The notes beneath the pieces are model-generated. The model did not search any database, was not told the DNA's origin, and saw only the letters and a program-made list of their open reading frames with translations. DNA of 64,000 nucleotides from Rhodococcus coprophilus NBRC 100603 (GTDB taxonomy: Bacteria; Actinomycetota; Actinomycetes; Mycobacteriales; Mycobacteriaceae), in contig NZ_BDAM01000005.1 in NCBI RefSeq assembly GCF_001895045.1, positions 310,001 to 374,000 on the forward strand, written 5' to 3'. Of this stretch, positions 32,354 through 62,484 are shown piece after piece (the first letter of the stretch is position 1; each line of letters starts with the position of its first letter). The translations under genes were made by a program, and so were the position numbers.

Positions 32354-32509
32354 ATGGCGACGGAATTCGATGGATGTGTGCGGGCTGAGGTGGGACCGGA
32401 CGCGGACCCGGCGGAAGCAGTTTCTAAGGTGGTGGGGTCCGTTGCCGTCGGCGGGTGGAAGCAGGGTGTGGAGTGGACGTCGCGTCGAGGGACAACGATC
32501 CCGAACTGA
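32354..32509 (+). CDS. Possible 51-residue ORF or frameshifted N-terminus of the helicase
   Basis: ATG at 32354; it reads 'MATEFDGCVRAEVGPDADPA', continues 'EAVSKVVGSVAVGGWKQGVE', and stops at 32507-32509, overlapping the helicase start in another frame. Codon third positions are GC-rich and the peptide looks protein-like. Its end ('IPN' before 'ELRDRVQRLL' in the helicase frame) lies exactly where the helicase's recognisable N-terminal helix begins. Either it is a short overlapping leader ORF, or the helicase once started here and a frameshift at about 32500 split it. Confidence 0.4.
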   Translation: MATEFDGCVRAEVGPDADPAEAVSKVVGSVAVGGWKQGVEWTSRRGTTIPN

Positions 32510-38747: not shown

Positions 38748-39722
38748 ATGGAGGTGGCAAAGCGCTACTCGTCGATGGTGGTCTGCGCGGGAGCCGGGGG
38801 CTTGGCGCTGGGATTGGAGAAGGCAGGTTTCGATCCGGTACTGCTCTTGGACAATCGAAAAGAAGCCTGTGAAACCCTGCGCACGAATCGGCCGGACTGG
38901 AACGTACTTCATATGGACCTTCAGGATTTCGATCCGATGGATCAAGGGACTCCCGAAGTCGACCTCCTGGCTGCCGGACTTCCGAGGTTGCGGGGATCCG
39001 CAGCTGCCGCCCGAGATCTGGACCCGGACAAAGACTTCGAACTGGTCAAAGCCGCAGTGTGGCTTACGCACGCTGTCCGTCCGCGTGCGGTGCTGCTCGA
39101 CAATGTTCCGGACTTTGTAACTTCTGCTGTATACGCCGAACTTCGTTCGTTCGTACAGGCGGAGCTAGAGCACCTCGGCTACCGTCTCGGTTGGTACGTC
39201 GTCAACGCTGTGGACTATGGCGTGGCGCAACTCCGGAAGCATGGGATCCTTGTTGCTCTGCAGCGATCCGCCTTTGATCAATTCGCGATCCCTCCGAGCA
39301 TCGTGCCGCGTCGCACGGTGGGTGAGGTCTTGCGAGAGTCCATGCGTATGGGTGGGTGGAGCCGTGCCGATGAGTGGGCTGCACTGGCGAACAGGCCGGC
39401 CCCGACGTTGGTGGGCGGGTCCTGGGACCGGGGTGGCGCCGACCTCGGCCCGACTGGTACCAAGCGATCTTGGGAAGAGATGGGGGTCGATGGAGGGACG
39501 ATCTCGGACGCGGTGCCAGGTGTTGACTTCGCGTGGAACCCGTCCGGCGATCGCTCGGAGAGGGTGCGTCTGACTGTTGCACAGGCGGCCATTTTGCAAG
39601 GATTCCCTGAGGAGTGGTATGTGGCGGGTCGGAAGACTGCCATGTACAGGCAGATTGCGAACGCCATGCCGCCCCCGCTCGCGCAGGCACTGGGAACTGC
39701 CCTGGTCGATGCGATCGGGTAG
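38748..39722 (+). CDS. C5-cytosine methyltransferase homologue lacking the catalytic cysteine
   Basis: 324 residues; the ATG at 38748 follows GAGGAGG by seven bases. The C5-MTase fold is clear. Motif I is 'VVCAGAGGLALGLEKAGF' (residues 11-28; usual FAGxGG). Motif VI is 'LLDNVPDFV' (ENV-like) and motif VIII 'VAQLRKHGILVAL' (weak QxRxR). Motifs IX-X are 'LTVAQAAILQGFPEEW' and 'YRQIANAMPPPLAQALG'. Motif IV, normally GPPCQ.FS with the nucleophile, reads 'AAGLPRLRGS': Pro79 is followed by Arg80 instead of Cys. It therefore should not methylate. It precedes an intact methyltransferase and may act as a DNA-binding or regulatory partner. Confidence 0.88.
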   Translation: MEVAKRYSSMVVCAGAGGLALGLEKAGFDPVLLLDNRKEACETLRTNRPDWNVLHMDLQDFDPMDQGTPEVDLLAAGLPRLRGSAAAARDLDPDKDFELVKAAVWLTHAVRPRAVLLDNVPDFVTSAVYAELRSFVQAELEHLGYRLGWYVVNAVDYGVAQLRKHGILVALQRSAFDQFAIPPSIVPRRTVGEVLRESMRMGGWSRADEWAALANRPAPTLVGGSWDRGGADLGPTGTKRSWEEMGVDGGTISDAVPGVDFAWNPSGDRSERVRLTVAQAAILQGFPEEWYVAGRKTAMYRQIANAMPPPLAQALGTALVDAIG

Positions 39723-39794
39723 CACGGTGAGTCTGTACTGTTCAGGGCCCCTCCACGACGAAGCTGTCGTCACCAAGTAATAAGCTCCAGGACC

Positions 39795-40865
39795 ATGGCC
39801 ACCGGTAAGCCCTCACTTGAGACGAAGCATCGCAGCGTCGTCGACCTGTTCGCAGGTCCTGGTGGTCTCGATGTTGCTGCCCATTGGCTGGGCATACCTG
39901 TGCATGGAATCGAGTGGGACACCGATGCGTGTGCAACTCGGAAGGCTGCCGGTCTCTCAACAGATCAAGAGGATGTTCGAGCCGTCGGTCCGGAGCACTT
40001 TCAGGATGCAACTGTCCTCGTGGGTGGGCCGCCATGTCAGACGTTCACACTCGCAGGTGGGGGTGCCGGACGCCGCGCACTCGATCGAGTCCTGCACTTT
40101 GTGAAGCAGATGGCGGCGGGAGTTGATGTCACGGACGCCGTCGCCGCGCTTGACGACGAACGGACGGGCCTGGTCCTCGAACCATTGCGTTGGATCATCC
40201 AAGCGACCGAACTCGGTCTCCCTTATGACGCAGTTATTTTGGAGCAGGTTCCTGCGGTCCTTCCGGTCTGGCAGGCCATGGGTGAGGCACTTGCCGGTCT
40301 CGGTTATCAAATCGACTGTGGAGTTCTGCGTACGGAGCAGTACGGAGTGCCTCAAACCAGGCGACGTGCAATTCTCGTTGCTCACCGTCATCGCACTCCG
40401 TCGCTCCCCGCGCCGACTCACCGGGCGTACCGGAAGGGTGTGCCACGGACAGAAGGTGATCCGACCCTGCTTCCGTGGGTGACAATGGAGGACGTCCTCG
40501 AGCGGGACGGTGATTTTGTTGTCGTTTCCAACTACGGCTCGGGCGGCGACCCGCGTGCCCGTGGGCGACGAACTTCCGACGAGCCTGCAGCGACTGTTAC
40601 CGGAAAGGTGAGCCGTAACAGGGTTATCGGACTCGATGGTGGAGAGCTTCCGCGTTTCACTCAGTCGGAGGCGGGCCGGCTGCAGACGTTCCCGGAGGAC
40701 TACCCGTGGGCCGGCAACGGCATAGCCCAACAGATCGGAAATGCGATTCCGCCACGGTTAGGGGCGCACGTTCTAGCAGCGGCTCTCGGCCTGAGTGTCG
40801 ACGAAGGCTTCTTCGAGACAGCACTGAAGAAACCCTGGCGCGAAAGTCGCCGGGGACTGCTGTGA
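39795..40865 (+). CDS. DNA (cytosine-5-)-methyltransferase
   Basis: 356 residues with all key motifs: I 'VVDLFAGPGGLDVAA' (15-29), IV 'VGGPPCQTFTLAGGGAGR' with catalytic Cys81, VI 'ILEQVPAV' (Glu present, ENV altered to EQV), VIII 'QTRRRAILVA', IX 'FTQSEAGRLQTFPEDYPW' and X 'QQIGNAIPPRLGAHVL'. It should transfer a methyl group from SAM to cytosine C5 in an unknown sequence. It lies 72 bp after the catalytically dead homologue, so the two are probably co-expressed. No cognate restriction endonuclease (Vsr or type II) is adjacent. Its position beside DrmA/DrmB genes suggests the self-marking methylase of a DISARM-like system. Confidence 0.93.
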   Translation: MATGKPSLETKHRSVVDLFAGPGGLDVAAHWLGIPVHGIEWDTDACATRKAAGLSTDQEDVRAVGPEHFQDATVLVGGPPCQTFTLAGGGAGRRALDRVLHFVKQMAAGVDVTDAVAALDDERTGLVLEPLRWIIQATELGLPYDAVILEQVPAVLPVWQAMGEALAGLGYQIDCGVLRTEQYGVPQTRRRAILVAHRHRTPSLPAPTHRAYRKGVPRTEGDPTLLPWVTMEDVLERDGDFVVVSNYGSGGDPRARGRRTSDEPAATVTGKVSRNRVIGLDGGELPRFTQSEAGRLQTFPEDYPWAGNGIAQQIGNAIPPRLGAHVLAAALGLSVDEGFFETALKKPWRESRRGLL

Positions 40866-40893
40866 AGTATAAGGCGGCGCGGAGCGACTGCCT

Positions 40894-41787
40894 CTAAACC
40901 GTATCGATGTTCTCATTCGAGGAATGGCGTGATCGCTTCCGTTTGGGGGCATCCGCGAGCATCTGACCGAACATAGAGGCAAGGGTCTCGATTGAGGTTT
41001 CCGGAACACGTCCATCGGAAGGGCCGTCCGGCAAAATCTCCCACAACACCGGAGCCATGATCTGAGAATCGGTGATCCACTCGATCGTGGCTTCATCGTC
41101 GATCGGCGCGTCGGGTGCAAGAACGTCATACACGAGAGTGCTACCAGCGGCGTTGATGGCGGATGAAAGTGCATTGACCTGGTCGCCGAGGCGAGGTGTA
41201 TCTTCCGTTATGAGGTTTCGGAGCACACGAAGGACAGCCTGTGCAGTAGGTCTGTGGTCGATGATATCCAGACGCATGGTCGTATTCAGCACGTCCTGCA
41301 CTGTGCATGCCAGCTCAACTGGTCGGTAATCATCGCTGTTTCTGAAAAGTTCCGCGGCCCACCACAGTCTCGAAAATGCCTGTGTGTAATGAGGTCCGGT
41401 AAAGCGTGCGGACTGGACGAGGCCCGCATTCTTGTGGCGCCACACGACGTAGTCGGGCGCGACGATAAACGCCAGGTGGTTCCACATCTCGTCATCTGCA
41501 GCCTCACTGCGCGACATTCGTAACGTGGCATGCAGTCGCGGCGCGAGCCATCCGTCCGCGGTTGCGGGCCTCTCGTCGAAACGTTCCATCGCTTCGACAA
41601 GGAGATCGCGTACCGGCCCGACACGCCAGCGCGCGTCGGTCTCGTCCTTCTGTACTGCGGACTTCAGCAGAGTCGCTGTCGGTGGCGCTTCGTCACCGGT
41701 CTGAATTCCGCGGCTGAGGTGCTTCGTTACCACGGCGCTCGGGAGTTGCCCGAGAACCTTCGGGATTTCGTGGGCGGCGGCCATCAT
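40894..41787 (-). CDS. DUF6339-like protein (tentative)
   Basis: 297 residues. Its ATG overlaps the stop of the upstream gene (ATGA), making it the last of three coupled minus-strand genes; it converges on the methyltransferase with only 28 bp between the stops. Recognisable segments are 'LAPRLHATLRMSRSEAADDE', 'WNHLAFIVAPDYVVWRHKN' and 'AFSRLWWAAELFRNSDDYRP', which I associate with the DUF6339 family often seen near DNA methyltransferases and DrmAB genes in actinobacteria. The C-terminus is basic and disordered. The function is unknown; the family name is from memory and unverified. Confidence 0.75.
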   Translation of the reverse strand: MMAAAHEIPKVLGQLPSAVVTKHLSRGIQTGDEAPPTATLLKSAVQKDETDARWRVGPVRDLLVEAMERFDERPATADGWLAPRLHATLRMSRSEAADDEMWNHLAFIVAPDYVVWRHKNAGLVQSARFTGPHYTQAFSRLWWAAELFRNSDDYRPVELACTVQDVLNTTMRLDIIDHRPTAQAVLRVLRNLITEDTPRLGDQVNALSSAINAAGSTLVYDVLAPDAPIDDEATIEWITDSQIMAPVLWEILPDGPSDGRVPETSIETLASMFGQMLADAPKRKRSRHSSNENIDTV

Positions 41788-42749
41788 TCGCCCTTCTGGT
41801 GTGCAGAGCGCACCGCGGTCATAAACTTCCGAGTTAGTTGACTGCGACGTCCAGCCGCGTACTGGATACGTGTCTGTATCTCAGACCATCCGATGCCGTC
41901 GGCTCGTCGTCGTGCGATCTCATACAACGCGTCGGCGGGCTGGCGGTCCGGGATCACATCGGGAAGCATCGTTCGCAATACCGATTCACGCCAGCCATCC
42001 GGCATCAAAGGAGTGCCGTCCTCGTCGACTTCGAGCCCGCTGACAGCGGAATGGAACATCGCGGTCCAAGCGTCCTGCGCGATCTGACTAGCGGCAAGGT
42101 CTCGTACCAGCCGTTCCTCGGCCGAGCCGGCAGAGCCGTTGAGGATATCGACCAGACCTTCGACTGCCGTGGTGTTCAGGTACACGCGTGGTATGTCGCC
42201 GGAAGTATCGACGATCCACGGAGAATCCTTGAACTCCCGAAGCCACTCGGGGCCATCGCGGAAGTCTTCGTCGACGATGTCCACGTCGCGTTGGCGCATC
42301 GGGTTGGAGGCGGCGACATCGACGAACCAATCACGTTCGGTTCCGCCTATCACTCTCCCCGGGACCCCACCGATCGTCGCGGTCACCACCAGGGACAAGC
42401 TGGCTCGCCTTGCGTAGCGGCGACGCGACATTTCGAGCGTGCCGGCCCAGGTCCCGTCTCTTCCACGAACGAGCCGGCGTGTGGTCTGTGCGTTTGTTGC
42501 CTTCTCGGTCAATGCTGCGAGACACACGACGTCAGTCCATTCGCCGTCAGAGATCTCTCGATCCGGCAGTGTGGCCTTCAGATCGAATCGCGCGGTTTCC
42601 CAGACGGCCCGTCCAGATTCATGAAGCGCCACTGCATGTTCGGTAGGTGACACCATCGAGTACGGAAGCGGGTGACCGTCCACAGTCACCGCAGCGATTT
42701 TGAGATCGACGTCCCCGAGGAGGGTTGGATAGGAGTAGACCGGTCTCAC
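41784..42749 (-). CDS. Hypothetical protein of the XRE-GHKL operon, 321 residues
   Basis: The GTG at 42747-42749 overlaps the stop of the GHKL gene (GTGA), and its stop overlaps the next start (ATGA). I do not recognise it. The N-terminal half is strand-rich ('VYSYPTLLGDVDLKIAAVTV', 'AVWETARFDLKATLPDREIS', 'ASLSLVVTATIGGVPGRVIG'), suggesting a beta-sandwich. The C-terminal half is helical ('LVRDLAASQIAQDAWTAMFH', 'DALYEIARRRADGIGWSEIQ'). Strict coupling on both sides implies a stoichiometric partner of the GHKL ATPase and the DUF6339-like protein. Confidence 0.82.
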   Translation of the reverse strand: MRPVYSYPTLLGDVDLKIAAVTVDGHPLPYSMVSPTEHAVALHESGRAVWETARFDLKATLPDREISDGEWTDVVCLAALTEKATNAQTTRRLVRGRDGTWAGTLEMSRRRYARRASLSLVVTATIGGVPGRVIGGTERDWFVDVAASNPMRQRDVDIVDEDFRDGPEWLREFKDSPWIVDTSGDIPRVYLNTTAVEGLVDILNGSAGSAEERLVRDLAASQIAQDAWTAMFHSAVSGLEVDEDGTPLMPDGWRESVLRTMLPDVIPDRQPADALYEIARRRADGIGWSEIQTRIQYAAGRRSQLTRKFMTAVRSAHQKGE

Positions 42750-44842
42750 GACACACCTCCCCGTGCTTTCGGCACCTCGACGACCAAACGTGCAAAGGCG
42801 CCTCGGACCGGATGGCTGGCTGGATCGGTCACCGCGGCGAATGTTGCTTGTCGTACCCCAGCATCGATAGCAAGGTTCGCGCCATCGACCGTGCACCCTT
42901 CGAGCGCTGTCAACTCACTCCACCGAACAGTTGGGCGACCGCCGGAGCGCACATCAAACTTTGCGACAGGCGTGAGAATCCAGGGATTCTCGGAGTCGGG
43001 AAGCTTGATGTCGACCGTGACGTTCCACGCTCCGGAGCCGTCGACACCGCCTTGAACATTGCGCACAGACGGGGCGCCGGAAACCCCCCGTGCACGTACT
43101 CCTGTCGTCCCCTCGAACTGCAGTAGATCTCGCAGCGCTTTTGGACCCCGGTTCCGTTCGACTTCTCGTCGACCGACGACATTACGCACCGCTTTGTCGA
43201 TCTCGGAACGGAACTCGCGGAGCCGTGTCAGCGCGCCCTTTTCATAGGACGAAGTGAGTTCTTCTGTGCGGTCCCACTTGTCGTGTTCCGGAGGCTCGGA
43301 CGCACGAAGGAAAGCTTCGGCCGCTGACGTGGATTCATCCTCCTGCCCGGTCGCGTGGCCGGCGAGCAGAACAGCCTGGAAGGGTGGGGTGCCCAAAGGA
43401 ACCTCCCGGGGCCTGTGCTCGACGATCGTCATTCGGTTGCCCCGCATGCAGATCACTCGGTTGGTAACAGCAGCTGTGTCCGCCGCGGGGGTCACCAACA
43501 GGACGGCTTCGTGCAGAAGACCTTTGCCGAGTCCCCGTCCTTCGCCTCGTCGCGGCGTGACGACGAGTGGGACGTCGACGCGCGCGACCTGCTCCGCCGC
43601 AGTCAGCTCGCTTACCGTCTCGTTGTCGAAATATGCGCGTAGGGCACGACTCAACGCAGGATGGTGGTCATGGGGATCGACCCGCTGTTCCCTGACGACG
43701 ACTTCGTCATTGCGGAGGGCGGTCACACGTGCATCGAGCAGGGGCACTGCCGTTTCCCCGCCTACCATCGCGGCCCAAAAACCGTCTGCAAGTGCGCGGA
43801 CGAGCTTCTCGTGCATCTCCTCCAAGGTTTCGGCATCTCCCGATGCATCATGCGCGCCCACTATCAGGAATGACGTGCCAGGTTCCGTACTATCTCTTGC
43901 GAGGCGCAGATCTCGGACGGTTGGTTCGTCTGCCCACCACGATCGTGAGACTCCACGGTGCTCGGGGTCGGACTCGGGTTCACCGAACCAGGCAGGACCC
44001 GCAAACGCAGAACCGTCGACCTGGTGCCAGGGAAGATCCAGGCGACCGATAACTCGACGCTCTGTGCGGCCCTCATGGGACTCCGACAGAGTGGAGTTGA
44101 CAAGGACGAGACCGAACTTGCTGGTCGCCCATAGCGTTGCTTTACCGAGGCCGTATGAGCCACCTGCCTGTCGGCCAGCCTGCTTGTGGCTGTCGAGCTG
44201 TCGACGGATGACCGCTGCGAAGCGCCCGTCGCCGTACTCCGGACCGGTCAATCCGGCCGCGTTGAAATCGTCGATTCGAAGGAGCACGAGAGAACGGTCT
44301 TGATGAAGGTCATCGAGCGCAGCTCGAAGGCTACGCGCTACCTTCTGATCGGTGGACGCCGCACTCGTGAAATGCGCGGACAGCTCATCCCACTGAATGG
44401 CCGCCAGAAACGATGACAGGCTTTCGCCTGTGAGTTCTTGAAGGGTGAAGGAAACCCTAACGGGGTTGTCGGCGTCCCGTCGCTCATCAAGCGAGTTCTG
44501 GGTCGCTTCTCTTGCGAGGACCGAGAGGTCGGCGTTGAAGGCGAAAGCAGCTGCGTTTCCGTACTCACGACCACCGTCCGAATGAGCGGGGCGATGGTGC
44601 CACCGAAGGTCGCCGAGGGGGCGGTCATGGATCGGCCCGTTGTCGTCTTCCAGAGGGGATACTCCCAAGACGCTGGCTATTTTCTGTTTCATTTCGTTTC
44701 GGGGCTCGGATCGTCCACTGATCCACGCCGAGACTGCGGCATGTGTTACGCCTATCTGCTTGGCAAGTTGCGCTTGGTTGAAAGCCGACGTGCGGAGATG
44801 CCGCCCCAGCCATGGGCCGAAATCCTCTTGCGGCGAACTCAT
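42746..44842 (-). CDS. XRE helix-turn-helix protein fused to a GHKL-type ATPase
   Basis: 698 residues from the ATG at 44840-44842 (AGGAG 11 bases upstream); a longer open frame is unlikely to be used. Residues ~20-60 are an XRE HTH ('AQLAKQIGVTHAAVSAWISG'). A GHKL (Hsp90/MutL/histidine-kinase) nucleotide fold follows. Its N-box is 'LAREATQNSLDERRD' (Glu112, Asn116), the acidic box 'LRIDDFNAAGLTG' (Asp191/192) and the Gly-rich lid 'GGSYGLGKATLWATS' (~227-241). The rest (~400 residues) is a MutL/Hsp90-like middle plus a C-terminal strand-rich domain. It could be both the ATP-dependent sensor and the regulator of the divergent helicase operon. Confidence 0.87.
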   Translation of the reverse strand: MSSPQEDFGPWLGRHLRTSAFNQAQLAKQIGVTHAAVSAWISGRSEPRNEMKQKIASVLGVSPLEDDNGPIHDRPLGDLRWHHRPAHSDGGREYGNAAAFAFNADLSVLAREATQNSLDERRDADNPVRVSFTLQELTGESLSSFLAAIQWDELSAHFTSAASTDQKVARSLRAALDDLHQDRSLVLLRIDDFNAAGLTGPEYGDGRFAAVIRRQLDSHKQAGRQAGGSYGLGKATLWATSKFGLVLVNSTLSESHEGRTERRVIGRLDLPWHQVDGSAFAGPAWFGEPESDPEHRGVSRSWWADEPTVRDLRLARDSTEPGTSFLIVGAHDASGDAETLEEMHEKLVRALADGFWAAMVGGETAVPLLDARVTALRNDEVVVREQRVDPHDHHPALSRALRAYFDNETVSELTAAEQVARVDVPLVVTPRRGEGRGLGKGLLHEAVLLVTPAADTAAVTNRVICMRGNRMTIVEHRPREVPLGTPPFQAVLLAGHATGQEDESTSAAEAFLRASEPPEHDKWDRTEELTSSYEKGALTRLREFRSEIDKAVRNVVGRREVERNRGPKALRDLLQFEGTTGVRARGVSGAPSVRNVQGGVDGSGAWNVTVDIKLPDSENPWILTPVAKFDVRSGGRPTVRWSELTALEGCTVDGANLAIDAGVRQATFAAVTDPASHPVRGAFARLVVEVPKARGGVS

Positions 44843-45162
44843 CGCAGTTATAACTCCTGGGGCGATCGAGGCACGTGGACGGTTGACTCTACCAAGCCGT
44901 AACCGATGCACTTCATGTCGTTCGAACGGATGACACGTGCTGTGGGACTCCGTGATCAAGATGTCGGTGGTTGCGTGCACAATGTCGGGCACGGGGGTGT
45001 CGGGGCACCCGGAGACAGACGCAGCTGAGACAGGGGAGGGCCGCACAACGAGAAGGACGCCGCACACGGTTGGACGTCCGGAGTTCACCTCCCAAAACAA
45101 ATCTCGCTGCACAAACAGCCGACGGCTCGTCGGTTCCCCATTTCGTTTTCAAGGATGTACAC
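44843..45162. promoter_or_regulatory. Divergent promoter region of the two defence operons
   Basis: 320 bp without a credible gene, separating the XRE-GHKL operon from the rightward helicase/GTPase operon. It contains a perfect ten-base palindrome CGTTCGAACG at 44919-44928 and an inverted repeat CCGACG-GCT-CGTCGG at 45119-45133. The repeat lies 30 bp before the ATG of the sacsin-like gene. Both are candidate sites for the XRE domain of the divergent protein. A TTGACT hexamer at 44883-44888 is a possible -35 element. Confidence 0.5.
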
Positions 45163-48100
45163 ATGACCAAAGCTGCGGACAGCACAGTACTGCAGAAGGT
45201 TGCCGAGCTCACCGAACTGGCTCTAGGCACATACGCTTTCAATCCCGCGCGCATCGAGGAAGACGCCAACGGTGAACGCAGGATCCATCAGGGTGGATAT
45301 GGCGACCGGCAGGTCTTCGAGTTGGTCCAGAATGCCGCCGACGAACTGCGCGACGAGCACAAGGGTGGCCGCATCCACGTGATCCTCACCGAGGACATGT
45401 TGTACTGCGCCAACGAGGGATCGCCGATGACGGTCGAAGGCGCCGACACCATCCTGCGAATGGGTGTCTCCAAGAAGCGCGGGGGCCAGATCGGACGGTT
45501 CGGAGTCGGGGTCAAGTCCGTACTTTCGGTGACTCGGGCGCCGCAATTCTTCAGTACTACAGGATCATTCGGTTTCGACGCTGATTGGTCCGCTGAAGAG
45601 ATCCTGCGTGCTGTCAATGCTGCCCGTGAGTCCAAGTCGCTGAGCGTGTTGAATTCCGTCGGAGACACTCCGGTGTTGAGAATGGCGCGGTCGCTGGACG
45701 TGGACATCGAGCGAGTGCGGGACACTGTGCTCGATTCGCTGCTCGGTTGGGCAAGCACAGTTGTTCGGTTACCGCTCATTCCGGGTGCAGCAGAACGGCT
45801 GTCTGCGGACATTCGATACGACAGCGCCCGGCACGTGACCAACCGAGAGTTTCCTCATCTTTTCCAGCTCTTTTCTCCGCAGGTGGGGACCGTGATCCTC
45901 GAGGATCGCAGCGTGATGCCGAAAGTCCGCCGAGAAATCACCTGTGTGCAGAAGGGTGACTTACGGACTATTCATCAGGCGCGAGGGGGAGCGAAGTCCT
46001 CCGCAGAGACATATCGAGTCTTCGGCATTCCTCATGTGGTCAGCGACGAGTCGCGTCAAGGAGCAGGGGAACTCCACGGTCGCGTCACGATAGATGTCTC
46101 TTGGGCAGTGCCGGAGTACTCTCGCGTACGCGACTCTCGCTATTTGACAGTTCCCACTGAGCGTGGCACGTTCTGGTCGTACTTTCCGACCAAGTATCCG
46201 ATGCAGCTCAGCGGAGCGCTCAACGCGGCGTGGAAGACCAACGAGGATCGGCAGAATCTCCTCGCAGGAAGCGAGCTGAATACAGAACTGCTGAAGGTTG
46301 CGGCCAAACTCGTAGTCGGTTCGCTGGAAGAACTTTCACCGAAGGAGGACCCGGCCGCATATCTGCCCTTGCTGCCGGGACGCGCAAGGGAATCCGAGTC
46401 GCCCAACTGGGCGTGCAAGTTCCTGACTGAGAACATCTGGAATCTCACCGCCAGTAACCCATCGTTGCCGGATCAAAACGGTGTACTGCAGATTCCTAAA
46501 TTGTTGCGAATCCACAGGGAGAAAATATCGGACGGAGCGCTCGAGCTCTGGCGCGCGTACGAGGGACGGCCCGTTGACTGGGTGCATCATTCGGTCGAGG
46601 GGCCTGGCTCGCGGCGCGGAAAGATGGTTCACATTCTCGACGCGGCATCACACAATAACCCCGCCTCGTTTCGGGAGTGGCTTGAAGCCCTCGTCGAAGA
46701 CGGCACCGTCGATGCCTCGAAGGCTGCGATTCGAGTGCTGGCCTACTTGCTCGCCAAAGATCTGGATGGATCCAAAGCGGCTGAGGACGCCGCGGATGCC
46801 CGCCGTGCTCGGATCATCCTGACCGATGGGGGAAAACTCGTTGCACCCACTCCCGGCATGGTATTCCGGCGGTCCAGTGAAGACGGGCTGCGCGACGACC
46901 TGATCTATATCGATCAGCGGATCGCCGACGACGTCGAACTACTCCCGATGCTTGATCGCCTCGGTATTCGCGAGGCGGACACCGAAGGTCGATTCCACAG
47001 TGTCCTCGATCAGGGCTTCGAGGGGTATACGGCCGAGTCATGGTCGCGCTTTTGGGAGCTTCTCCACAAGGCAGGCGGAGCCAGTCAAGCCAGGGCGATC
47101 ACAGCCAGGGTCAGAGACGTGTCTACGACATTGCACGCCCGTACCCTTACCGGCAAGTTCGAGCCGCTTCACGCATGTATGCTTCCCGGTCCGGTGGTAC
47201 CTCCCGATGGATCCAGGGATGCAAAACTGGTGATCGACATGGAGTTTCATGCGAACGACCGCTCGATCTTGCGAGAGTTCGGGGTCGCGGACAGGCCGAT
47301 GACCGGATTCAAGCCGGATGGCGACGGATGGTTCGCCTCGTACCGCGATGCGATGTATGAGGCGTATTGCGCATCCCTCCCGGCAACAACTCGGCCGGTA
47401 ATGCCTCAGACTATGCGCCTGGACGGTGGCGCAACGGCGGGCCCGCTGCATCTTTTCAGGCATCTGTCTCCGGAAGGCCGTGCTGCGTTCCTCGCCGCGG
47501 TACCTGAAGAGGGTCTGGTCGAGAATTGGACGCGGCAAATCGGGAAGGCTTCGAACACCCGAGCACAGGTGATTTCACCCATACGATGGCTCTTCAAAGA
47601 GTTCGGATTTGTCAAGACCTCGCTGGGAACAGTGCGGGTGCAGGACGCGGTCGGTCCTCAACTGGCGGCGTATTCCGAGGTACTTCCTGTTGCCGAAATC
47701 AGCGTGGGCAGGGCGCAGCGCCTCCGGCTTCCCTGCCGAGTCGAAGATGTCGCATCAGGTCGCTGGCGTGCCCTTCTCGAGTCGGTGAAGTCCAGCACGG
47801 ACGACCAGTTCGTCGGGCGATCCTATGCCTTGCTTATTCGGGTTGCCGTCGAACTTCTTCTCGGGGAGGACACCGTCCGTTGTCGGGTCGGCGACACTTG
47901 GGATCTATTACCCGACGGATCGATCGCAGTCGCGGTGACCCGCGACGAGTACGAGGAACTCATTCGTGAGAACCACCCCGCACTGCTCGTCGATTCCCCC
48001 GACGACGCGGAGCAGGTCGAGGTGATGATCAACGACTGGGGTATGAGACGCGTCACCGATGTCATCGAGAAGCGGATACGTTCCGTGCCGTCCGGCGATG

Positions 48101-55147: not shown

Positions 55148-56997
55148 CCCCACCGCCCAACACCGCACGTCGCCGTAGAGGAGCAGGTACGCCACCGAAG
55201 CCTGCGCCGCGAAAGCTCGGAGCAGTTCGGCGCTCACAGTTGGTTACTACCTACGGTGTCGGGTCAATGGTGGCGGTCGACAACGAGTCGTTCATCATTG
55301 CCGGCATCGATACGTGGGACGTTTCCGAAGCTGTCTCGGTATATGAACGTCGGTTGTCCCACATCCTCGGGGTCGACTCCTTCAAGTTGCCTCCAGCTCC
55401 CGACCCGGATCGTGCGACCGGCGGCGTTGTGGCGCATCGTTTTCCCGACTTCTATTCCTGCCCAGGCTGTAAAGTGCTGCAAAGGTTTTACAAGTTCAAC
55501 TCGGAGAAAGGCCGGGCGCGCTGTGACGAATGCAGCGAGGATTTGGTTCCCTCACGGTTCGTCATTGCCTGCGACTACGGGCATATCGACGACTTTCCGT
55601 ATTGGAAGTGGGCGCACCGCGATGTGGCCAGAGAGCCCGGCAAGTGTGGCGGGACCCTGACGCTCCACACCGATGGAAGTACCGCGTCGCTGAGATCTGT
55701 GGTGATCAAATGTGATTGCGGTGTACCCGATGTATCGATGGAAGGCGCGTTTCGGGCACAGGCCCTGAGGGACCTCGGCATTCGATGTGGAGGTCAGACG
55801 CCGTGGCTGTCGAACTCTCTACCTGAACGATGCGATGAGCGTCCGCGCGTGATGCAGCGAGGCTCGTCGTCGGCATGGCATCCGATCATGAACAGTGCGC
55901 TGTCGATTCCGCCGTGGGGCGAGGGGCTGTACGCGCTGGTCGAGCGGGAGAAGCTCATCGGTGCCTCTGAAGAAATCGTTCGGTTCCACTTCAAGAACCG
56001 CCAGGGTTTGCTCGATAAACTGAATGCGAGTGTTGAAGACGTAATCGAAGTGGTCAAGGCGTTCGAGGAACGTGAAGTGTCACCCGAAGACGGCGACGTT
56101 CCTCCTACCAGGACGTCGAGCACGCTCCGTCAGGATGAGTACAAGGCGTTGGTTCGCGGACGGAAAGAAGAACACGTCGCCGAGTACCAGCCCTTCGTTT
56201 GCGAGGCGCCAGACGGAGACCTTACCGAGGTTCGCGAATTTGGAATTGCGGGCAGCATGCTCGTGAAGCGGCTGCGAGAAGTGCGTGTCTTGTCGTCCTT
56301 CGTTCGTGGGGAGGCACCCTCCGAAGCAGATTCCGAGAATCGCCACGCACGACTTAGTATGAGCGACAAAACGGGCTGGTTGCCTGCGATGGAAGTGATC
56401 GGTGAGGGCGTATTCCTCGAGCTGGACGAAGCTCGGCTGTCGCGGTGGGAAAAGAACGGTGCGGTAAGGGATCGTGCAGACAGGATCCGAGCGAACCACA
56501 CAGCGCTGCTCCGAGAGCGTGCCGGCGTGGGGAAGGCAGGTACCGGCAAGCACGTGGAATCACACGTTACCCCGCGGTTCCTTCTGCTCCATACGCTCGC
56601 GCATGTCCTGATCAACGAGTTCAGCCTCGATGCGGGCTATCCGGCGTCGGCCCTCCGTGAGCGGTTGTACTCGGATGCCGAGATGGCCGGCGTGCTGATC
56701 TACACGGCTACAAGCGACTCGGCTGGGAGTCTCGGCGGGATCGTCGCGCAGGGGGAGCCTGACAAGTTGGCCTCGACGCTGCGTGCGGCTCTTGCCCGTG
56801 CCGAATGGTGCTCGAACGATCCGTTGTGCATGGAGTCGGAATCCAGTGGTGCGGGAAGTGTGAATCTCGCGGCGTGCCACGCTTGTGCGCTGCTTCCCGA
56901 AACGAGCTGTGAATCGATGAACAGCTTCCTGGATCGTGCCATGCTCATCGGAGACCAAACGGGCACGATACCGGGCTACTTTGCAGATCTGCCGTAA
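55144..56997 (+). CDS. drmB: DUF1998 protein, DrmB-like
   Basis: 617 residues, normal DrmB length. The N-terminus carries the family signature 'RRSQLVTTYGVGSMVAVDN', then two zinc pairs Cys106 ('YSCPGCKVLQ') and Cys127 ('RARCDECSEDL') and 'IKCDCGVPDVSMEGAF'. The DUF1998 domain begins at ~480 ('LLHTLAHVLINEFSLDAGYP', 'ALRERLY') and ends in a Cys cluster at ~556-580 ('WCSNDPLCMES', 'ACHACALLPETSC'). DrmB assists DrmA in DNA loading. After it there is a 46-bp gap with an AGGAG site before the GTPase gene, the only non-overlapping junction in the operon. Confidence 0.9.
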   Translation: MTPPPNTARRRRGAGTPPKPAPRKLGAVRRSQLVTTYGVGSMVAVDNESFIIAGIDTWDVSEAVSVYERRLSHILGVDSFKLPPAPDPDRATGGVVAHRFPDFYSCPGCKVLQRFYKFNSEKGRARCDECSEDLVPSRFVIACDYGHIDDFPYWKWAHRDVAREPGKCGGTLTLHTDGSTASLRSVVIKCDCGVPDVSMEGAFRAQALRDLGIRCGGQTPWLSNSLPERCDERPRVMQRGSSSAWHPIMNSALSIPPWGEGLYALVEREKLIGASEEIVRFHFKNRQGLLDKLNASVEDVIEVVKAFEEREVSPEDGDVPPTRTSSTLRQDEYKALVRGRKEEHVAEYQPFVCEAPDGDLTEVREFGIAGSMLVKRLREVRVLSSFVRGEAPSEADSENRHARLSMSDKTGWLPAMEVIGEGVFLELDEARLSRWEKNGAVRDRADRIRANHTALLRERAGVGKAGTGKHVESHVTPRFLLLHTLAHVLINEFSLDAGYPASALRERLYSDAEMAGVLIYTATSDSAGSLGGIVAQGEPDKLASTLRAALARAEWCSNDPLCMESESSGAGSVNLAACHACALLPETSCESMNSFLDRAMLIGDQTGTIPGYFADLP

Positions 56998-57043
56998 CTC
57001 ACCGTCCCCCGCGTAACGGGAATTCAGACAGGAGCAAAATCAC

Positions 57044-60000
57044 GTGCACGAGGACAAGGGTGCGCTCGAGAGTGCGGTTTCGCGTGCAGTGGAAGAAGGA
57101 GTACGTGAGCTCGACTCCCTCGATCGCACGATCGAATCTCTGTCGGAGGAGTTCGACCGCGTAGTCGACTCTGTTGCAGGTGATGGGTCATGCACTGATG
57201 CTGACGCTCTGCGCGAATCCGCGCTCGAATTCAAGCACTCGATCCGGTCCCATCTCGCTCGACAGCGGAAAGTCCTGTCCACGTTCAACATCGCATTCTT
57301 CGGTCGGACGGGTGCTGGAAAGAGCACCCTGCTATCTGCCTTCGGTCGCCTCGATGGGGGGTATGTGTCACCCGGTGAGAGCGACTGGACCACCGATGTC
57401 ACAGAGGTCGAATGGGCAGGATGCAGGTTGTGGGACACCCCCGGAATCAACGGATGGGGGCGGACGCGCAAGAGAAGCGAGCTGGAAAAGGTGGCGCGCG
57501 AAGCCGTCGAGGTTGCAGACGTTGTGATGCTGTGTTTCGACACCCAAAGTCAGCAACCATCGGAGTTCGCGAAGGTTGCAGAATGGGTTCGTGAGTTCGG
57601 GAAACCGGCAATCGCCGTGGTCAACGTCCGGAATCTCCGTTGGCGTCACCCCGCCAAGGTGCCCAGCGACAATGCCCGCAGATCACTCTCCCAAGCCGTT
57701 CGAGAGCACGTTGTGAACATTCGGGCCGAGCTGAGCAACATCGCCCTCGGTGCCACGCCCGTGGTGGCCATCCATAGCCGGCGGGCCCTGTTCGCGCGAG
57801 CTACGACTCCCTTCAAGGGACCGTCCGAATCCAACTTCACGACCGAGCGAAAAAACTTCGGAGTGGAGTCTCTCGCCCAGTGGTCCAACTTCTCGGTACT
57901 CGAGGACCTCGTTGTTGCCTCCATTGTCTCGGGTGGAAGTGATCTGCGTTTGAGAGCACTGAGGGAAGGTGTTCGCGGAATCCTCACTTCACATGCGATG
58001 GACCTCGACGGTCAGGTGCAGGAAATGACACCCCGAATCGAGGAGGCAGAACGGATCATCGAGGGTTTGTTCGACACACTCGGGTATCCAGACGAGCGAA
58101 TCCTGCAGGCGCTTCCGGGTGCTCAGGGGGACAAGAACGACGCGGTGAAGACCCTCGAATCGCTGCGAGGCGTGCCGTTTACCTCGCCGGTTACAGGTCG
58201 CCTCGACAGGCACGTTGCTCGTTTGCTCCGGTCACACCTTGCAGACCCTCGCGCCGACTCTATTGCGGTGTCCGATCGGCTGCTCTATGAAGCATTCGAA
58301 CAGAAAAGGACCCTCGACGAATCGCGCTTCAACGAGATGGTCTACAACCTTGAGGCAATTCAAGCCGCGGTGGAAGAAGTGTGGTCGTCTAAGGCTGAGT
58401 TTCTATCCCGGGATGTGAGCCTCGCCGCGTTCGGCGCTGCTCCTGATCTCTCGGACAGTGATCTGGATTCGGCATCGTTGAACGGCGCCGCAGGTCGAGT
58501 CAAGCTTTCGATCGCCCGTCTTATGCAAGCGGCAGGATTGGCTGCGGGCGCCGGCGCAGGCGTTCTTATTGTGCCGGGCGTTGCGAATATTTGGAATCCG
58601 GCGGGGTGGGTCGCTTCGTCAGCCTCTGTCGCGCTCAGATTAGTGGCGGAAGCTGGGAAGTACGCGGGAAAGAAGATTGAGCATCTCGGTGAAAAGGAGA
58701 AGACTGAGGCGCGGTCCGAGGCGCAAGCGTCCTTTCGTCACGCGGTCGACATGACCTTCGACCGGATGGAACAGGATTTACGCATGCGGAGCCGGGAGTC
58801 GACATGGGACCTTGTCGGCCCCGAGTTGCGTGCGCTTCTCCTGAATGCGATCGCTTTGCGCAAGCAACAGGCGGCGCTGGAACGTCTCGTCGGTCAGTTG
58901 CGGCGTGCGGCATCGAGCTTGCCGATATCGCCCAGCGCGGACGCGACCCTTGCACGCGCGCAATCCGAGGTCCTCGACAGCTACGCCGAGTCTCGGTTGC
59001 CGGATCGCGACCTCGATGCACCGGCGGAACCACTCGCGCAACGAGTTTGGCTCGGCGAGGACTGGATCGAGGACACGGCAACAGAGATTGACATCGAAAA
59101 CCCAGTTCAACACGCAGCTTTCGCTGTTCGTGCCGATAGTGACCAACAACAGCTCAGGGAACTGCTCGATCGAGTGTGGAATCCGCGCTCCCTAGAGCGA
59201 GTAGCCGCCATGACCGCGAGGACTTCTACTGGGTCATCACCTGTTTATGCTGAGGAAGAACCAGCATCTCAGTGTGGCTGCTCACGGCCGAAGATCGTGT
59301 TTCTCGGCGACTACAGCTCGGGCAAGTCCAGTTTGATCAAGCGGATCCTGATTGAAACAGGGGACTTCGATTCTGCCGACATGCCTATCGGGGGTGGTCC
59401 CGTCACCTCCGCTGCGCATGCGTATCACGTCGGCAATGTGTGTCTGATCGACACGCCGGGCTTCCAGAGCAGCAACTCCGAGCACAACGCGCTCGCACTG
59501 CAAGTGGCCGCCGGCGCTGCTCTCGTGGTCTTCGTGTTTCATGTCAATCTCCTTATCGGGGACCTGTCGTTCATCGAATCGATCGCAAACGGAACAGAGA
59601 CATCGGTTTCAAAGAGGGACCGCATTCTCTACCTCGTCAACCGCGCGGATGAACTGGGCGTAGATCCGGTAACGGCACCGGCCGAATTCCTGGCGGCGAA
59701 GGATCGCAAAGAGTCCGAGCTCGTCGCGGCGCTGGCATCTCATGGAATCCAGGTCGACCCCCGTCAGGTGTATTCGATGTCCGGGGACCCCTTCGGAAAG
59801 GTCGGATCACGGATCGATATAGGCCCGTCCGCCTATGGGCAGCATCGGTCTTGGGATGCCGTAGGACCCGTGATCGACGTGATCAACAGTGTCGGGAAAG
59901 ATCACGCACGAGCGGGGGCAGCAAAAGCCGACCTCGATGTGTCGCTGAACAATCTGATGAAACAGCGCATCGACTTGCAGGACGGAATCCGTAATGCGGA

Positions 60001-60874
60001 GGCTGTAACGGATGCAAATCGCGCGGTTATGGAAGCATTGGAAAATGGCGAACGGGACGCTTTGCTTCTGTCGGGCGTGTTGCGCCAGGACGCTAGAGAC
60101 CTTGTCAGCGGCCACGCGAACTTCGCGAAGTCCCGCGTGAGATCGCTCGCCTCCGACGAACTCCACAAGATGGCCGAGATCGCCAACTCCTGGTGGAACG
60201 ACATCGGATTCCAGACGAACATCGAGTCTTTCAGAACGCGTGCAGCGCAAGAGATCGACGATTGGTTCAGGGAACACTCGTCGCAGATCGATCGTGAAAT
60301 CGCCGCTGCAGAGTTCGCACAAAGAGGAATCGTGATCGACCATCGGTTCGAGGGCCCGAACGCGGCAAACGGCGACGGACCGAGGGTGTTTGCAGGTGCG
60401 GCGAAGGGCGGAGCGCGTATCGCAAAGGCCCTGGGGAGACGTGATGAGATTTACCGGGTGGGAAAGATGATTGGGGTGAAGTTCAGGCCGTGGGGAGCAG
60501 TGAGGGCGGCGGGTAGGGCTGCCAAGGTTGCTCCGGTACTGGCAGTAGTGGGCGTGGCAGCCGATGCTTATGGCGTATTCAAGGGTGAGAAAGCCCTTCG
60601 CGACCGTGAGCTGAGTCGGGAGGAGGCCGAAACCTTCATTGCCAAACTTGCCGAGGAGATTCTGGATCAGATTCTTTGTGGGACCGAAGCGGATGGGCCG
60701 ATCCCTGTGCTCGAAGAGCGCCGGACAGCGCTCACCGAGTGCATGCAAGACATGCAGAAAGACGTGAATGCGACGGCGGCCGCTGTCGCCGACCTACAGG
60801 CGTCACTTGAAGAAATCGACGGTTTGCTCGAATCCGGCACCGGTGTACACAGCGCAGACAGGATCGCGCAGTGA
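57044..60874 (+). CDS. Large dynamin-like protein with two GTPase domains
   Basis: 1276 residues; the GTG follows AGGAG. First G domain: G1 'FFGRTGAGKST' (~85-95), G3 'WDTPGING' (~130-137), and a degenerate G4 ('VVNVRNLRW' rather than NKxD). Second G domain: G1 'FLGDYSSGKSS' (~752-762), G3 'IDTPGFQSS' (~802) and G4 'LVNRADELG' (~864-872). Between them lies a long helical region with a hydrophobic stretch at ~497-545 ('AAGAGAGVLIVPGVANIW', 'WVASSASVALRLVAEAG'), a possible membrane-insertion paddle. The C-terminus has Gly/Ala-rich helices and a coiled coil. The layout resembles bacterial dynamin or IRG-type GTPases, some of which act in phage defence. Confidence 0.87.
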   Translation: MHEDKGALESAVSRAVEEGVRELDSLDRTIESLSEEFDRVVDSVAGDGSCTDADALRESALEFKHSIRSHLARQRKVLSTFNIAFFGRTGAGKSTLLSAFGRLDGGYVSPGESDWTTDVTEVEWAGCRLWDTPGINGWGRTRKRSELEKVAREAVEVADVVMLCFDTQSQQPSEFAKVAEWVREFGKPAIAVVNVRNLRWRHPAKVPSDNARRSLSQAVREHVVNIRAELSNIALGATPVVAIHSRRALFARATTPFKGPSESNFTTERKNFGVESLAQWSNFSVLEDLVVASIVSGGSDLRLRALREGVRGILTSHAMDLDGQVQEMTPRIEEAERIIEGLFDTLGYPDERILQALPGAQGDKNDAVKTLESLRGVPFTSPVTGRLDRHVARLLRSHLADPRADSIAVSDRLLYEAFEQKRTLDESRFNEMVYNLEAIQAAVEEVWSSKAEFLSRDVSLAAFGAAPDLSDSDLDSASLNGAAGRVKLSIARLMQAAGLAAGAGAGVLIVPGVANIWNPAGWVASSASVALRLVAEAGKYAGKKIEHLGEKEKTEARSEAQASFRHAVDMTFDRMEQDLRMRSRESTWDLVGPELRALLLNAIALRKQQAALERLVGQLRRAASSLPISPSADATLARAQSEVLDSYAESRLPDRDLDAPAEPLAQRVWLGEDWIEDTATEIDIENPVQHAAFAVRADSDQQQLRELLDRVWNPRSLERVAAMTARTSTGSSPVYAEEEPASQCGCSRPKIVFLGDYSSGKSSLIKRILIETGDFDSADMPIGGGPVTSAAHAYHVGNVCLIDTPGFQSSNSEHNALALQVAAGAALVVFVFHVNLLIGDLSFIESIANGTETSVSKRDRILYLVNRADELGVDPVTAPAEFLAAKDRKESELVAALASHGIQVDPRQVYSMSGDPFGKVGSRIDIGPSAYGQHRSWDAVGPVIDVINSVGKDHARAGAAKADLDVSLNNLMKQRIDLQDGIRNAEAVTDANRAVMEALENGERDALLLSGVLRQDARDLVSGHANFAKSRVRSLASDELHKMAEIANSWWNDIGFQTNIESFRTRAAQEIDDWFREHSSQIDREIAAAEFAQRGIVIDHRFEGPNAANGDGPRVFAGAAKGGARIAKALGRRDEIYRVGKMIGVKFRPWGAVRAAGRAAKVAPVLAVVGVAADAYGVFKGEKALRDRELSREEAETFIAKLAEEILDQILCGTEADGPIPVLEERRTALTECMQDMQKDVNATAAAVADLQASLEEIDGLLESGTGVHSADRIAQ

Positions 60875-62484
60875 CCGATCTGGACTCGAACCGCGTCATG
60901 GAATGGCTCGCAACCATGCCAGGTGAGTCCAACCCCAGCCGGCTGAAGTCGCGCTGGGACGACTTCAACATGTTCGATAAGCCGGTCGTCACTGTGTTCG
61001 GCTCATACGACACCGGAAAAAGCTCTCTGATTCGCCGCATCCTTGTTGACGCGGGCACGCCGGTACCGGGGTGGTTGACGATCAGCGGCCGGCACGAAAC
61101 CTTTGAGGTCAATGGTGTCGAGTGTCAGGGCTGTCTCCTGCGAGACACCCCTGGCTTGGCGGTGGGGGCGGAAGATGTTCGTGGCGTAGCGAATACACAT
61201 GCGGCCGTTGCGGCGCTCGAACTGACGGATATTGCCATCGTCGTGGTTTCACCGCAGTTGGCGACAGGTGAGCGGGGACTCCTTCGGGCCCTACTCGACG
61301 GAACCTGGACGCCTCGGGACCTATGGTTTGTGGTTTCTCGGTTCGATGAGGCAGGAATCGATCCGGAAGACGATCTCGAGGGCTATTTCGAATTGAGGGA
61401 TCGAAAGACCGCAGAGTTGAGAGAGTCGCTGGATCTCGCTGCGGATTTTCCCATTCATGTGGTCGTACCGGATTTCGCCCAGTTCGCAGGTTCGTCACTC
61501 TCGGTGGAGGCTGCGACGTGGGATGACTTCCGTGCATGGGACGGCATGAACGAACTCGAACAGGCGATTGCGCATATTGGAAGTAGCGCTCTCACACATG
61601 CGCGGGCTGCGACGGAGGAGCGGTACTGGCGCCGAATACTGATTCGCGAAGTCTCTCGCTTGAAATCGCAACTTGCGGAAGCAGAACCGCTCGCTGCGGA
61701 AGCCGAGGCTGCGGAGTCTCGACACGAGCACTGGTCGCACGAATTACGCGAGATCGATCTCGCAGCTCGGGCCGATCTCAGTGCTCTCAGAGAGAAATTG
61801 ACCGCCGTTCTACTGTCGGACTGGGAGGCAGCGACCGGAGACAGATCACTGCTTCTGAGCGGGGTGGAGAGTGCCATCAGTGGGTGGTCCGACACGTACC
61901 AGCAGCACGTTGACCGATTCTTGCAAAGTGTCGGCCGAGCATCGGCTCGTCAATCCGGACGTCAGTCATGGCGGAACCTGCAGGAGATTGTCACAGTAAT
62001 CGAGGAGATGGAGCCGACATCAATCGAGTCTGCCCGAGTAGGTAAGCATGTAAAGACTGTCGGGGGAGCGGTGATCGCGGCGCTTCAAGATATTTCGCGA
62101 GTTCGACCGGCTAAGTCCGCGCGGATGAAGAATCCCGGCTCGGAGTCCTCCAGTGGGGGGGTGGGTGACTGGTCGCCCTCCGAAGTGCTCGCCGCAGCCA
62201 CTGCAGTGTGGAAGCTTGCGCAAGTGGTTCTGGACGAGTGGGAGGATTACCGCGCTGCTCGTGAAACTGCCTTGCATAGCGAGAAACTGGCGAAAGCACG
62301 GGCCGAGAAGCTCGCTGTAGACCTAGTAGCGATCGCCCAAACCGTGTGGGACAAGGTGATGGTCGAGACGGAGCATAGGCTGCGAGTCGTCGATTTCTCG
62401 AAACCGGAGATCACGGACGGCCTACGCGAATCCGTCGATCAATTGCGCAAAGCTATCAATGCTGCGGAGACGCTCTTGGCGTAA
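60871..62484 (+). CDS. Single-domain dynamin-like/Era-like GTPase
   Basis: 537 residues; GTGA overlap with the large GTPase gene, so the two are made together. Its G domain is N-terminal: G1 'VFGSYDTGKSSLIRR' (~41-55), G3 'LRDTPGLAVG' (~90-99) and G4 'VVSRFDEAG' (~154-162). Residues ~260-537 are helical with coiled-coil segments ('LKSQLAEAEPLAAEAEAAES'), like a dynamin stalk but without an obvious hydrophobic paddle. A paired large/small GTPase arrangement is typical of bacterial dynamin-like modules. It is the last gene of the operon, followed by a strong terminator. Confidence 0.87.
   Translation: MTDLDSNRVMEWLATMPGESNPSRLKSRWDDFNMFDKPVVTVFGSYDTGKSSLIRRILVDAGTPVPGWLTISGRHETFEVNGVECQGCLLRDTPGLAVGAEDVRGVANTHAAVAALELTDIAIVVVSPQLATGERGLLRALLDGTWTPRDLWFVVSRFDEAGIDPEDDLEGYFELRDRKTAELRESLDLAADFPIHVVVPDFAQFAGSSLSVEAATWDDFRAWDGMNELEQAIAHIGSSALTHARAATEERYWRRILIREVSRLKSQLAEAEPLAAEAEAAESRHEHWSHELREIDLAARADLSALREKLTAVLLSDWEAATGDRSLLLSGVESAISGWSDTYQQHVDRFLQSVGRASARQSGRQSWRNLQEIVTVIEEMEPTSIESARVGKHVKTVGGAVIAALQDISRVRPAKSARMKNPGSESSSGGVGDWSPSEVLAAATAVWKLAQVVLDEWEDYRAARETALHSEKLAKARAEKLAVDLVAIAQTVWDKVMVETEHRLRVVDFSKPEITDGLRESVDQLRKAINAAETLLA

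Follow-up and report, generated by a model that had tools for sequence, protein, structure and literature searches.

DISARM, one of the described defense systems closest to the locus reported here, occurs in two subtypes, and drmABC are common to all of them (PMC10270631). In class 1, the N-terminus of DrmA bears an EVE-like domain (PMC12458937). The DrmAB complex binds single-stranded DNA and its ATPase activity is lower with DNA containing 5-methylcytosine, with residue V1296 of Serratia DrmA being the proposed methylation sensor (PMC9142583). A different kind of system is formed by GHKL ATPases of the paraMORC type, which act together with superfamily 2 (SF2) helicases and cytosine methylases in restriction-modification (R-M) systems (PMC2292703). 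The window analyzed in this study is the whole stretch of 64,000 nucleotides from Rhodococcus coprophilus NBRC 100603 (NZ_BDAM01000005.1, 310,001-374,000; coordinates given below are those of the window). It contains nine genes which join drmA and drmB to features of the second kind of system and which are very probably a virus-defense machine.

The nine genes are two methyltransferase homologues (MT1 and MT2), a divergent triad (M33A, M33B and M33C) and a quartet consisting of SacHel, UvrD, DrmA and DrmB. They apparently represent an undescribed, DISARM-derived class that is joined to a paraMORC-type R-M module. We consider it probable that they form a single defense system of Actinomycetota, consisting of two coupled operons and acting by the mechanism proposed below. 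The original prediction for this region had comprised eleven genes, including two GTPases downstream of DrmB. As this Leo pair is not conserved with the rest, whereas the nine others are, the set was reduced to nine. Text searches, with most subscription papers outside their reach, showed no description of the nine-gene set among the papers listed. The same searches returned no paper on DUF6339, none with both sacsin and DUF1998, and, among the papers listed for DISARM, none with the word sacsin; the word sacsin is absent from the main texts of PMC12458937 and PMC11090510.

The core genes SacHel, UvrD, DrmA and DrmB

The window proteins were scanned against Pfam, PADLOC and NCBIfam profiles, using gene starts of our own choice. 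For comparison, the best 80 loci by likeness to the SacHel of the window, mostly from Streptomyces, were collected, and the presence of genes was scored by tblastn. Residue conservation, overlaps and co-variation were counted on re-aligned sets of those genes that could be delimited (SacHel 79, UvrD 77, DrmA 72, DrmB 76, M33A, M33B and M33C 70 each, MT1 68 and MT2 58 out of 80).

The four core genes are located on the plus strand, and every neighboring pair is joined by a 4-base overlap of stop and start codons. SacHel (45163..49965) codes for a protein with an N-terminal sacsin-type GHKL ATPase and a C-terminal RadD-like SF2 helicase. Its N-terminal half scores 68.2 with the NCBIfam model P_loop_sacsin (cut-off 50) and matches sacsin in the PDB (5v47, 5.6e-8), while the score with Pfam SACS (19.4) is under the cut-off of 32.8. 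The C-terminal half matches RadD in NCBIfam (2.9e-33) and in the PDB (6jde, 5.6e-36). The key residues of both the GHKL and the SF2 part are invariant in 17/17 proteins. UvrD (49962..51866) encodes a superfamily 1 (SF1) helicase of the UvrD family (Pfam UvrD-helicase, 4.7e-24) with a C-terminal region to which no family could be assigned. The domains and coordinates expected for these two genes were thus confirmed.

The short form of DrmA (51863..55147) reaches 1015 bits with NCBIfam NF038325 DISARM_DrmAS (cut-off 950), 2.3e-245 with PADLOC and 1.1e-179 with the solved DrmAB of Serratia (7s9v). DrmB (55144..56997), a zinc-binding MZB/DUF1998 protein, reaches 470 bits with NCBIfam NF038324 DrmB_fam (cut-off 240), 2e-74 with PADLOC and 7e-74 with 7s9v_B. 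At the level of sequence, the identities of DrmA and DrmB are secure, and the helicase lies inside DrmA as predicted. Residue 13 of the window DrmA aligns with residue 136 of Serratia DrmA and onward, so that about 120 N-terminal residues of the latter are missing. Its V1077 aligns with Serratia V1296; a valine at this position as well as the helicase motifs are invariant in 73/73 sequences. DrmB contains 16 cysteines, of which 12 are kept in 77/77 proteins and one more in 76.

Methyltransferases and the divergent triad

MT1 (38748..39722) and MT2 (39795..40865) are located on the plus strand and run towards the triad, which is encoded on the minus strand. Both pass the Pfam cut-off for C5-cytosine methyltransferases (PF00145, 8.1e-37 and 1e-28, respectively), as was expected of a methyltransferase pair. 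It had been missed, however, that MT1 is without the catalytic cysteine. Its motif IV reads G-L-P-R, and a cysteine at the PC position is absent from 69/69 aligned proteins (window included) and from three further orthologues, giving 72/72 examined. Judging from these residues, MT1 is a catalytically dead pseudo-methyltransferase. MT2 keeps the motifs PPCQ, EQV and QxRxR, and the cysteine is present in 56/59 aligned proteins, the others showing two gaps and one isoleucine. With the NCBIfam model dcm (cut-off 100.65), MT1 scores above (111.7) and MT2 below (92.0) the threshold. In PADLOC, for which the best 25 matches per protein were listed for MT1, MT2, UvrD and SacHel, DruM2 matches MT1 at 1.4e-87 and a type II model matches MT2 at 9.2e-86, whereas DrmMII models match weakly (7.7e-24 and 3.9e-20).

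The triad starts with M33A (42746..44842), encoding an XRE helix-turn-helix domain and a paraMORC-like GHKL ATPase (HTH_3, 1.4e-9), the GHKL residues of which are kept in 69-71 of 71 proteins. It is followed by M33B (41784..42749), a conserved gene translationally coupled to M33A and M33C, and by M33C (40894..41787), encoding a DUF6339 protein (Pfam PF19866, 7.7e-14). This divergent operon had been predicted with the same composition and was confirmed by Pfam and PADLOC. The A and C models of the PADLOC candidate system PDC-M33 match M33A (4.5e-25) and M33C (2.6e-10), both weakly. M33B has no family match in Pfam, PADLOC or NCBIfam, and a Pfam scan of 42 of its members gave scattered weak matches only. 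For neither M33B nor M33C was a PDB sequence match found up to E = 1.

The two operons are separated by a divergent intergenic region of 320 bp (44843..45162), in which an operator search found one weak palindrome of 13 nt (77% complementary, 44946-44965). This region is a possible place of action for the XRE domain of M33A.

Conservation, related systems and alternative explanations

Among the 80 loci, UvrD is present in 78 (in one of them 12 kb away and on the opposite strand), DrmA in 75, DrmB in 76, M33A and M33B in 71 each, M33C in 70, MT1 in 68 and MT2 in 61. The predicted association of extra helicases, GHKL triad and methyltransferases with DrmAB is therefore borne out by presence and by co-variation, and the gene arrangement is beyond chance. 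Overlaps of 4 bases were counted in 69/75 loci for SacHel-UvrD, 58/71 for UvrD-DrmA, 49/72 for DrmA-DrmB, 49/70 for M33A-M33B and 60/70 for M33B-M33C, where start codons in relatives were chosen nearest to those of the window, which may favor these counts. MT1 and MT2 overlap by 4 bases in 1/50 loci only. The exact strand pattern of the nine window genes recurs in 48/79 loci. Correlations of pairwise protein distances, calculated with kinship ignored, amount to 0.95-0.97 among the quartet proteins, 0.94-0.96 among those of the triad and 0.84-0.93 across the two groups. Under the same calculation, MT1 correlates with the seven quartet and triad genes at 0.71-0.79 and MT2 with all others at 0.48-0.64. 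MT2, with its intact motifs, thus seems to be exchanged more freely than MT1.

In addition, two genome samples not ranked by likeness to the window were analyzed, namely 298 genomes of the order, including that of the window, and 396 genomes of the phylum Actinomycetota; G000 and G022 belong to both. Only SacHel loci in which the GHKL and the helicase half were both matched were counted. SacHel matches up to 1e-20 were found in 57 genomes of the order; 41 of them comprised one half only and were dropped. The remaining 16 genomes have 17 two-halved loci, one of them (G254) split over two contigs. DrmA adjoins 16/17 of these, the exception being G022 (coordinates same as L099), and an SF1 helicase lies between SacHel and DrmA in 15/16, with none seen in G048. 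Of five SacHel matches in the phylum sample, one comprised one half only and was dropped, and three of the four two-halved loci adjoin DrmA by coordinates. DrmA itself occurs in 57/298 genomes of the order, 42 of which have no two-halved SacHel beside it. The triad was found beside 3/16 DrmA-linked SacHel loci (G000, G110, G325), and the fetched flanks of 10/13 loci without triad contain a C5-methyltransferase. Since loci of the order sample mostly have no triad, the quartet is regarded as the core, and the triad together with MT1 as the marker of a subtype that prevails among the 80 loci. Of 26 plasmid records matching SacHel, none does so over 80% of its length; 25 cover the helicase half only and one covers over 60% from the N-terminus. 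Among the best 80 matches in viral contigs, one (L229) is full-length.

A quick tree of DrmA was calculated from 57 sequences of fetched loci, which include 15 of the 80, with a midpoint root for drawing only. It leaves out L029 (a duplicate of L074), two loci without a delimited DrmA and class 2 DISARM references. SacHel-linked sequences form two starred groups of 24 and 9 rows. The larger one is associated with UvrD, contains the window and G022, and joins the class 1 group at a support of 89 (not starred). In the smaller one, the SF1 helicase carries a Pfam NERD nuclease domain in four rows. The SacHel link needs three changes on this tree, which the starred branches force, compared with a mean of 19.0 after shuffling (0/500 as low). 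The only long-branch warning concerns L209, outside the SacHel-linked groups.

The locus resembles DISARM in its orthologous DrmA and DrmB, supported by the curated models and the alignment with the Serratia complex, in the proposed methyl-sensing valine and in having a cytosine methylation module. It differs in its shorter DrmA and by the addition of SacHel, UvrD, the GHKL triad and the dead methyltransferase. Moreover, no DrmC, DrmD, DrmE or DrmMI was recognized among the PADLOC matches listed for the window proteins, in agreement with the original prediction as far as the first three are concerned. In the 80 loci, DrmD was found in none and DrmC in none either (one DrmC reference, about 3 kb past DrmB covered in most), whereas DrmE was not sought. 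DrmE was also considered as the identity of the SF1 helicase or of neighboring genes in other loci and had no match among those listed. As no DrmC was found, a strict definition that requires drmABC places the nine-gene set outside DISARM. Possibly, the GHKL ATPases stand in place of the missing sensors or effectors.

The likeness to paraMORC-type R-M systems consists of a GHKL ATPase with intact motifs and of an SF2 helicase and a DNA methylase in its neighborhood. No restriction endonuclease was recognized in the nine genes; in the four sister-type proteins scanned, NERD is fused to the SF1 helicase. PDC-M33 is matched by M33A and M33C, but this carries no implication for the DrmAB half.

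Tiamat consists of a single gene. The N-terminal GHKL half of SacHel is similar to its protein TmtA (1.8e-40, residues 72-625 of the long open reading frame), but the listed TmtA models match this half only and not the RadD-like helicase half. Membership was ruled out, as the best TmtA model is matched at 8-508 of 1538 only. ARMADA shares the YprA-family helicase, and a UvrD helicase resembling GajB is found in its type II; however, BrxHII- and PglX-like proteins are required (PMC12458937). Among the matches listed for the genes scanned in 37053-63998, there is neither a BrxHII-like helicase nor a PglX-like methylase, and the locus encodes DrmA and DrmB separately, like DISARM, so that ARMADA was ruled out as well. 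Druantia is not supported, as only its methyltransferase models matched strongly.

The explanation that competes most seriously with a single nine-gene system, unlikely though we hold it to be, is that two separate systems are linked only by their position in a shared defense island, a paraMORC-type R-M system (MT1, MT2, M33A-C) and a DrmAB system (SacHel, UvrD, DrmA, DrmB). It would account for the 13/16 DrmA-linked SacHel loci of the order sample with no triad in the fetched flanks, for G263, where the triad lies about 15 kb from SacHel-DrmAB, and for two (G272, G200) of the six genomes with M33A among the 298, which have no two-halved SacHel or DrmA match. Against this separation stand the divergent order and strand pattern fixed in 48/79 loci, the presence of M33A in most of the 80 loci and the high correlation between the two halves. 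A true class 2 DISARM, in which MT1 and MT2 would act for DrmMII while DrmC and DrmE were replaced or missed, is improbable: the DISARM cut-offs are passed by DrmA and DrmB, C5-methyltransferases are present and DrmMII models match weakly, but DruM2 and the type II model fit far better, and the matches listed for the nine proteins, as well as those for the SF1 and neighboring genes tested in other loci, include neither DrmC nor DrmE.

A function in DNA repair, with SacHel, UvrD and DrmAB forming a complex like RadD or MrfA, is hardly credible. Relatives of RadD, UvrD and YprA/MrfA are repair helicases (for MrfA, PMC12458937), whereas the set is spread patchily, with DrmB in 0/17 other genomes of the genus and two-halved SacHel in 16/298 of the order, and lies with attached methyltransferases and triad among other defense genes in an island of low G+C content (about 0.60 compared with 0.65 upstream). 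An eleven-gene system, in which the two downstream GTPase genes would add an abortive second layer, is also very improbable, although slightly less so. These genes are co-directional with DrmB and follow it after 46 bp, which is the sole gap in a chain of six genes that had been predicted to overlap throughout, and simple sigma-70 and terminator patterns revealed no promoter-like or terminator-like site at the junction (56800-57300), so that they may be co-transcribed with the DrmB operon. However, Leo genes occur in 0/80 loci within the flanks covered, and in the two nearest relatives (Prescottella subtropica, L124, and Rhodococcus koreensis, L092), homologous DNA extends from the methyltransferases to the stop codon of DrmB and ends there. 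Furthermore, Leo pairs stand alone elsewhere: in a survey of 239 genomes of the order, the fusion gene was found in six others, with an adjoining LeoA partner in 6/6 (weakly in L326) and neither DrmA nor DrmB within the 17-18 kb fetched around them. By these three observations the pair was ruled out as part of the system, and the idea of membrane-type GTPases as its second layer was given up.

Proposed mechanism, dynamin pair and neighboring genes

Gene content, order, coupling, co-variation and motif states were observed directly. From homology, we infer a defense function for the nine-gene system. MT2 would mark host DNA with 5-methylcytosine, and MT1 would act as a DNA reader or partner without catalysis. 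DrmAB, keeping the proposed methyl-sensing valine, would detect exposed single-stranded, unmethylated DNA of the invader in the manner of DISARM. GHKL proteins are ATP-gated clamps. The GHKL domains of M33A and SacHel may close in such a way, similar to MutL, and pass the DNA on to the RadD and UvrD motors; a contact between MutL and UvrD is known from E. coli (PMC2292703). These motors could unwind or strip the invader DNA and thereby block its replication. The XRE domain of M33A probably also controls the shared divergent promoter region. Profile scans recognized no nuclease in the nine genes of the window, so one might act in trans, or an unrecognized one might take part. Since sister systems carry NERD on their SF1 helicase and DISARM has been described as apparently not requiring DrmC (PMC9142583), it is plausible that helicases drive the block or that a nuclease of the host takes part.

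Tentatively, and as something possible rather than probable, the locus may stand for a third, undescribed class of DrmAB immunity that is widespread in Actinomycetota. In it, two different GHKL clamps gated by ATP would combine with three helicases (the RadD-like one, UvrD and DrmA) into a single machine for DNA handling that has no nuclease of its own, and the dead methyltransferase would be a base-flipping reader of its partner's site. If true, self-recognition would be carried out by a conserved dead cytosine methyltransferase reading the site that the active partner writes. The position of the conserved dead methyltransferase next to one whose motifs are intact gives direct access to the reading of methylation in systems of this kind. 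Keeping DrmAB while its surroundings are swapped allows the core to be told apart from exchangeable parts and bears on the action of DISARM after DNA sensing. Quartet and triad are conserved enough for testing gene by gene. The fusion of sacsin and RadD would tie a chaperone-like ATPase to DNA defense; in a spastic ataxia, the human relative of this ATPase carries mutations (PMC3710099).

Other arrangements around DrmAB were observed as well. In L071 and L078 (G212, G295), a DrmD/BrxH-like helicase and a type IIG-like methyltransferase lie directly 3′ of SacHel-SF1-DrmA-DrmB, as checked with PADLOC for L071 and by similarity matches only for L078. Based on these matches, it is another swap of the modification module. 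A further arrangement without SacHel, forming its own group in the DrmA tree, was found in L027, L204, L207, L208 and L024 (L206 is similar). It mostly comprises proteins of about 350 and 510 amino acids, a NERD/UvrD-like helicase, DrmA and DrmB, and in several loci, a C5-methyltransferase is located close by. In L027, no PADLOC model matches the two upstream proteins.

The two genes downstream of DrmB encode three GTPase domains, where the original prediction had counted two GTPases, and are a typical Leo pair of the LeoABC or DynA type. The first (57044..60874, plus strand) is a tandem dynamin-like GTPase with LeoBC fused to a LeoA-like half (PADLOC LeoBC 3e-152, LeoA 1.1e-75). The second (60871..62484, plus strand) is a dynamin-like GTPase of the LeoA type (PADLOC 1.4e-85) and overlaps the first by 4 bases. 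Leo proteins are bacterial dynamins, with an anti-phage role for DynA (PMC4159319, PMC8844932). The pair looks like an independent cassette added on in the same direction outside the conserved system. In G110 (L066 7758-11950), whose SacHel is 61% identical, SWIM/PDC-S62-like and GmrSD_C proteins sit after DrmB instead of dynamins, which suggests that exchangeable cargo is accommodated at the 3′ end. In L323, a DrmD-like helicase is located near the Leo pair.

Close to MT1, an open reading frame of 396 amino acids (37053-38243, minus strand) has no Pfam or PADLOC match. Further upstream (32455-36789), a protein of 1444 amino acids combines an SF1-type helicase and an MTES_1575 nuclease domain; it is PDC-S37-like and thus a further candidate defense gene. 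Directly after the dynamins, the minus strand encodes a PDC-S11-like protein (62565-63998), whose full open reading frame of 692 amino acids extends past the end of the window.

Finally, a complete class 1 DISARM (DrmD, DrmMI, DrmA, DrmB, DrmC), which the original prediction had missed, lies outside the window in the same genome (C5:382459-396666; loci L015 12459-16052 and L016 542-11666). Its start lies about 10 kb beyond the end of the dynamin pair and 15 kb beyond DrmB of the window. Its DrmA is about 34% identical overall to that of the window, so that two DrmAB systems are found in one defense island.

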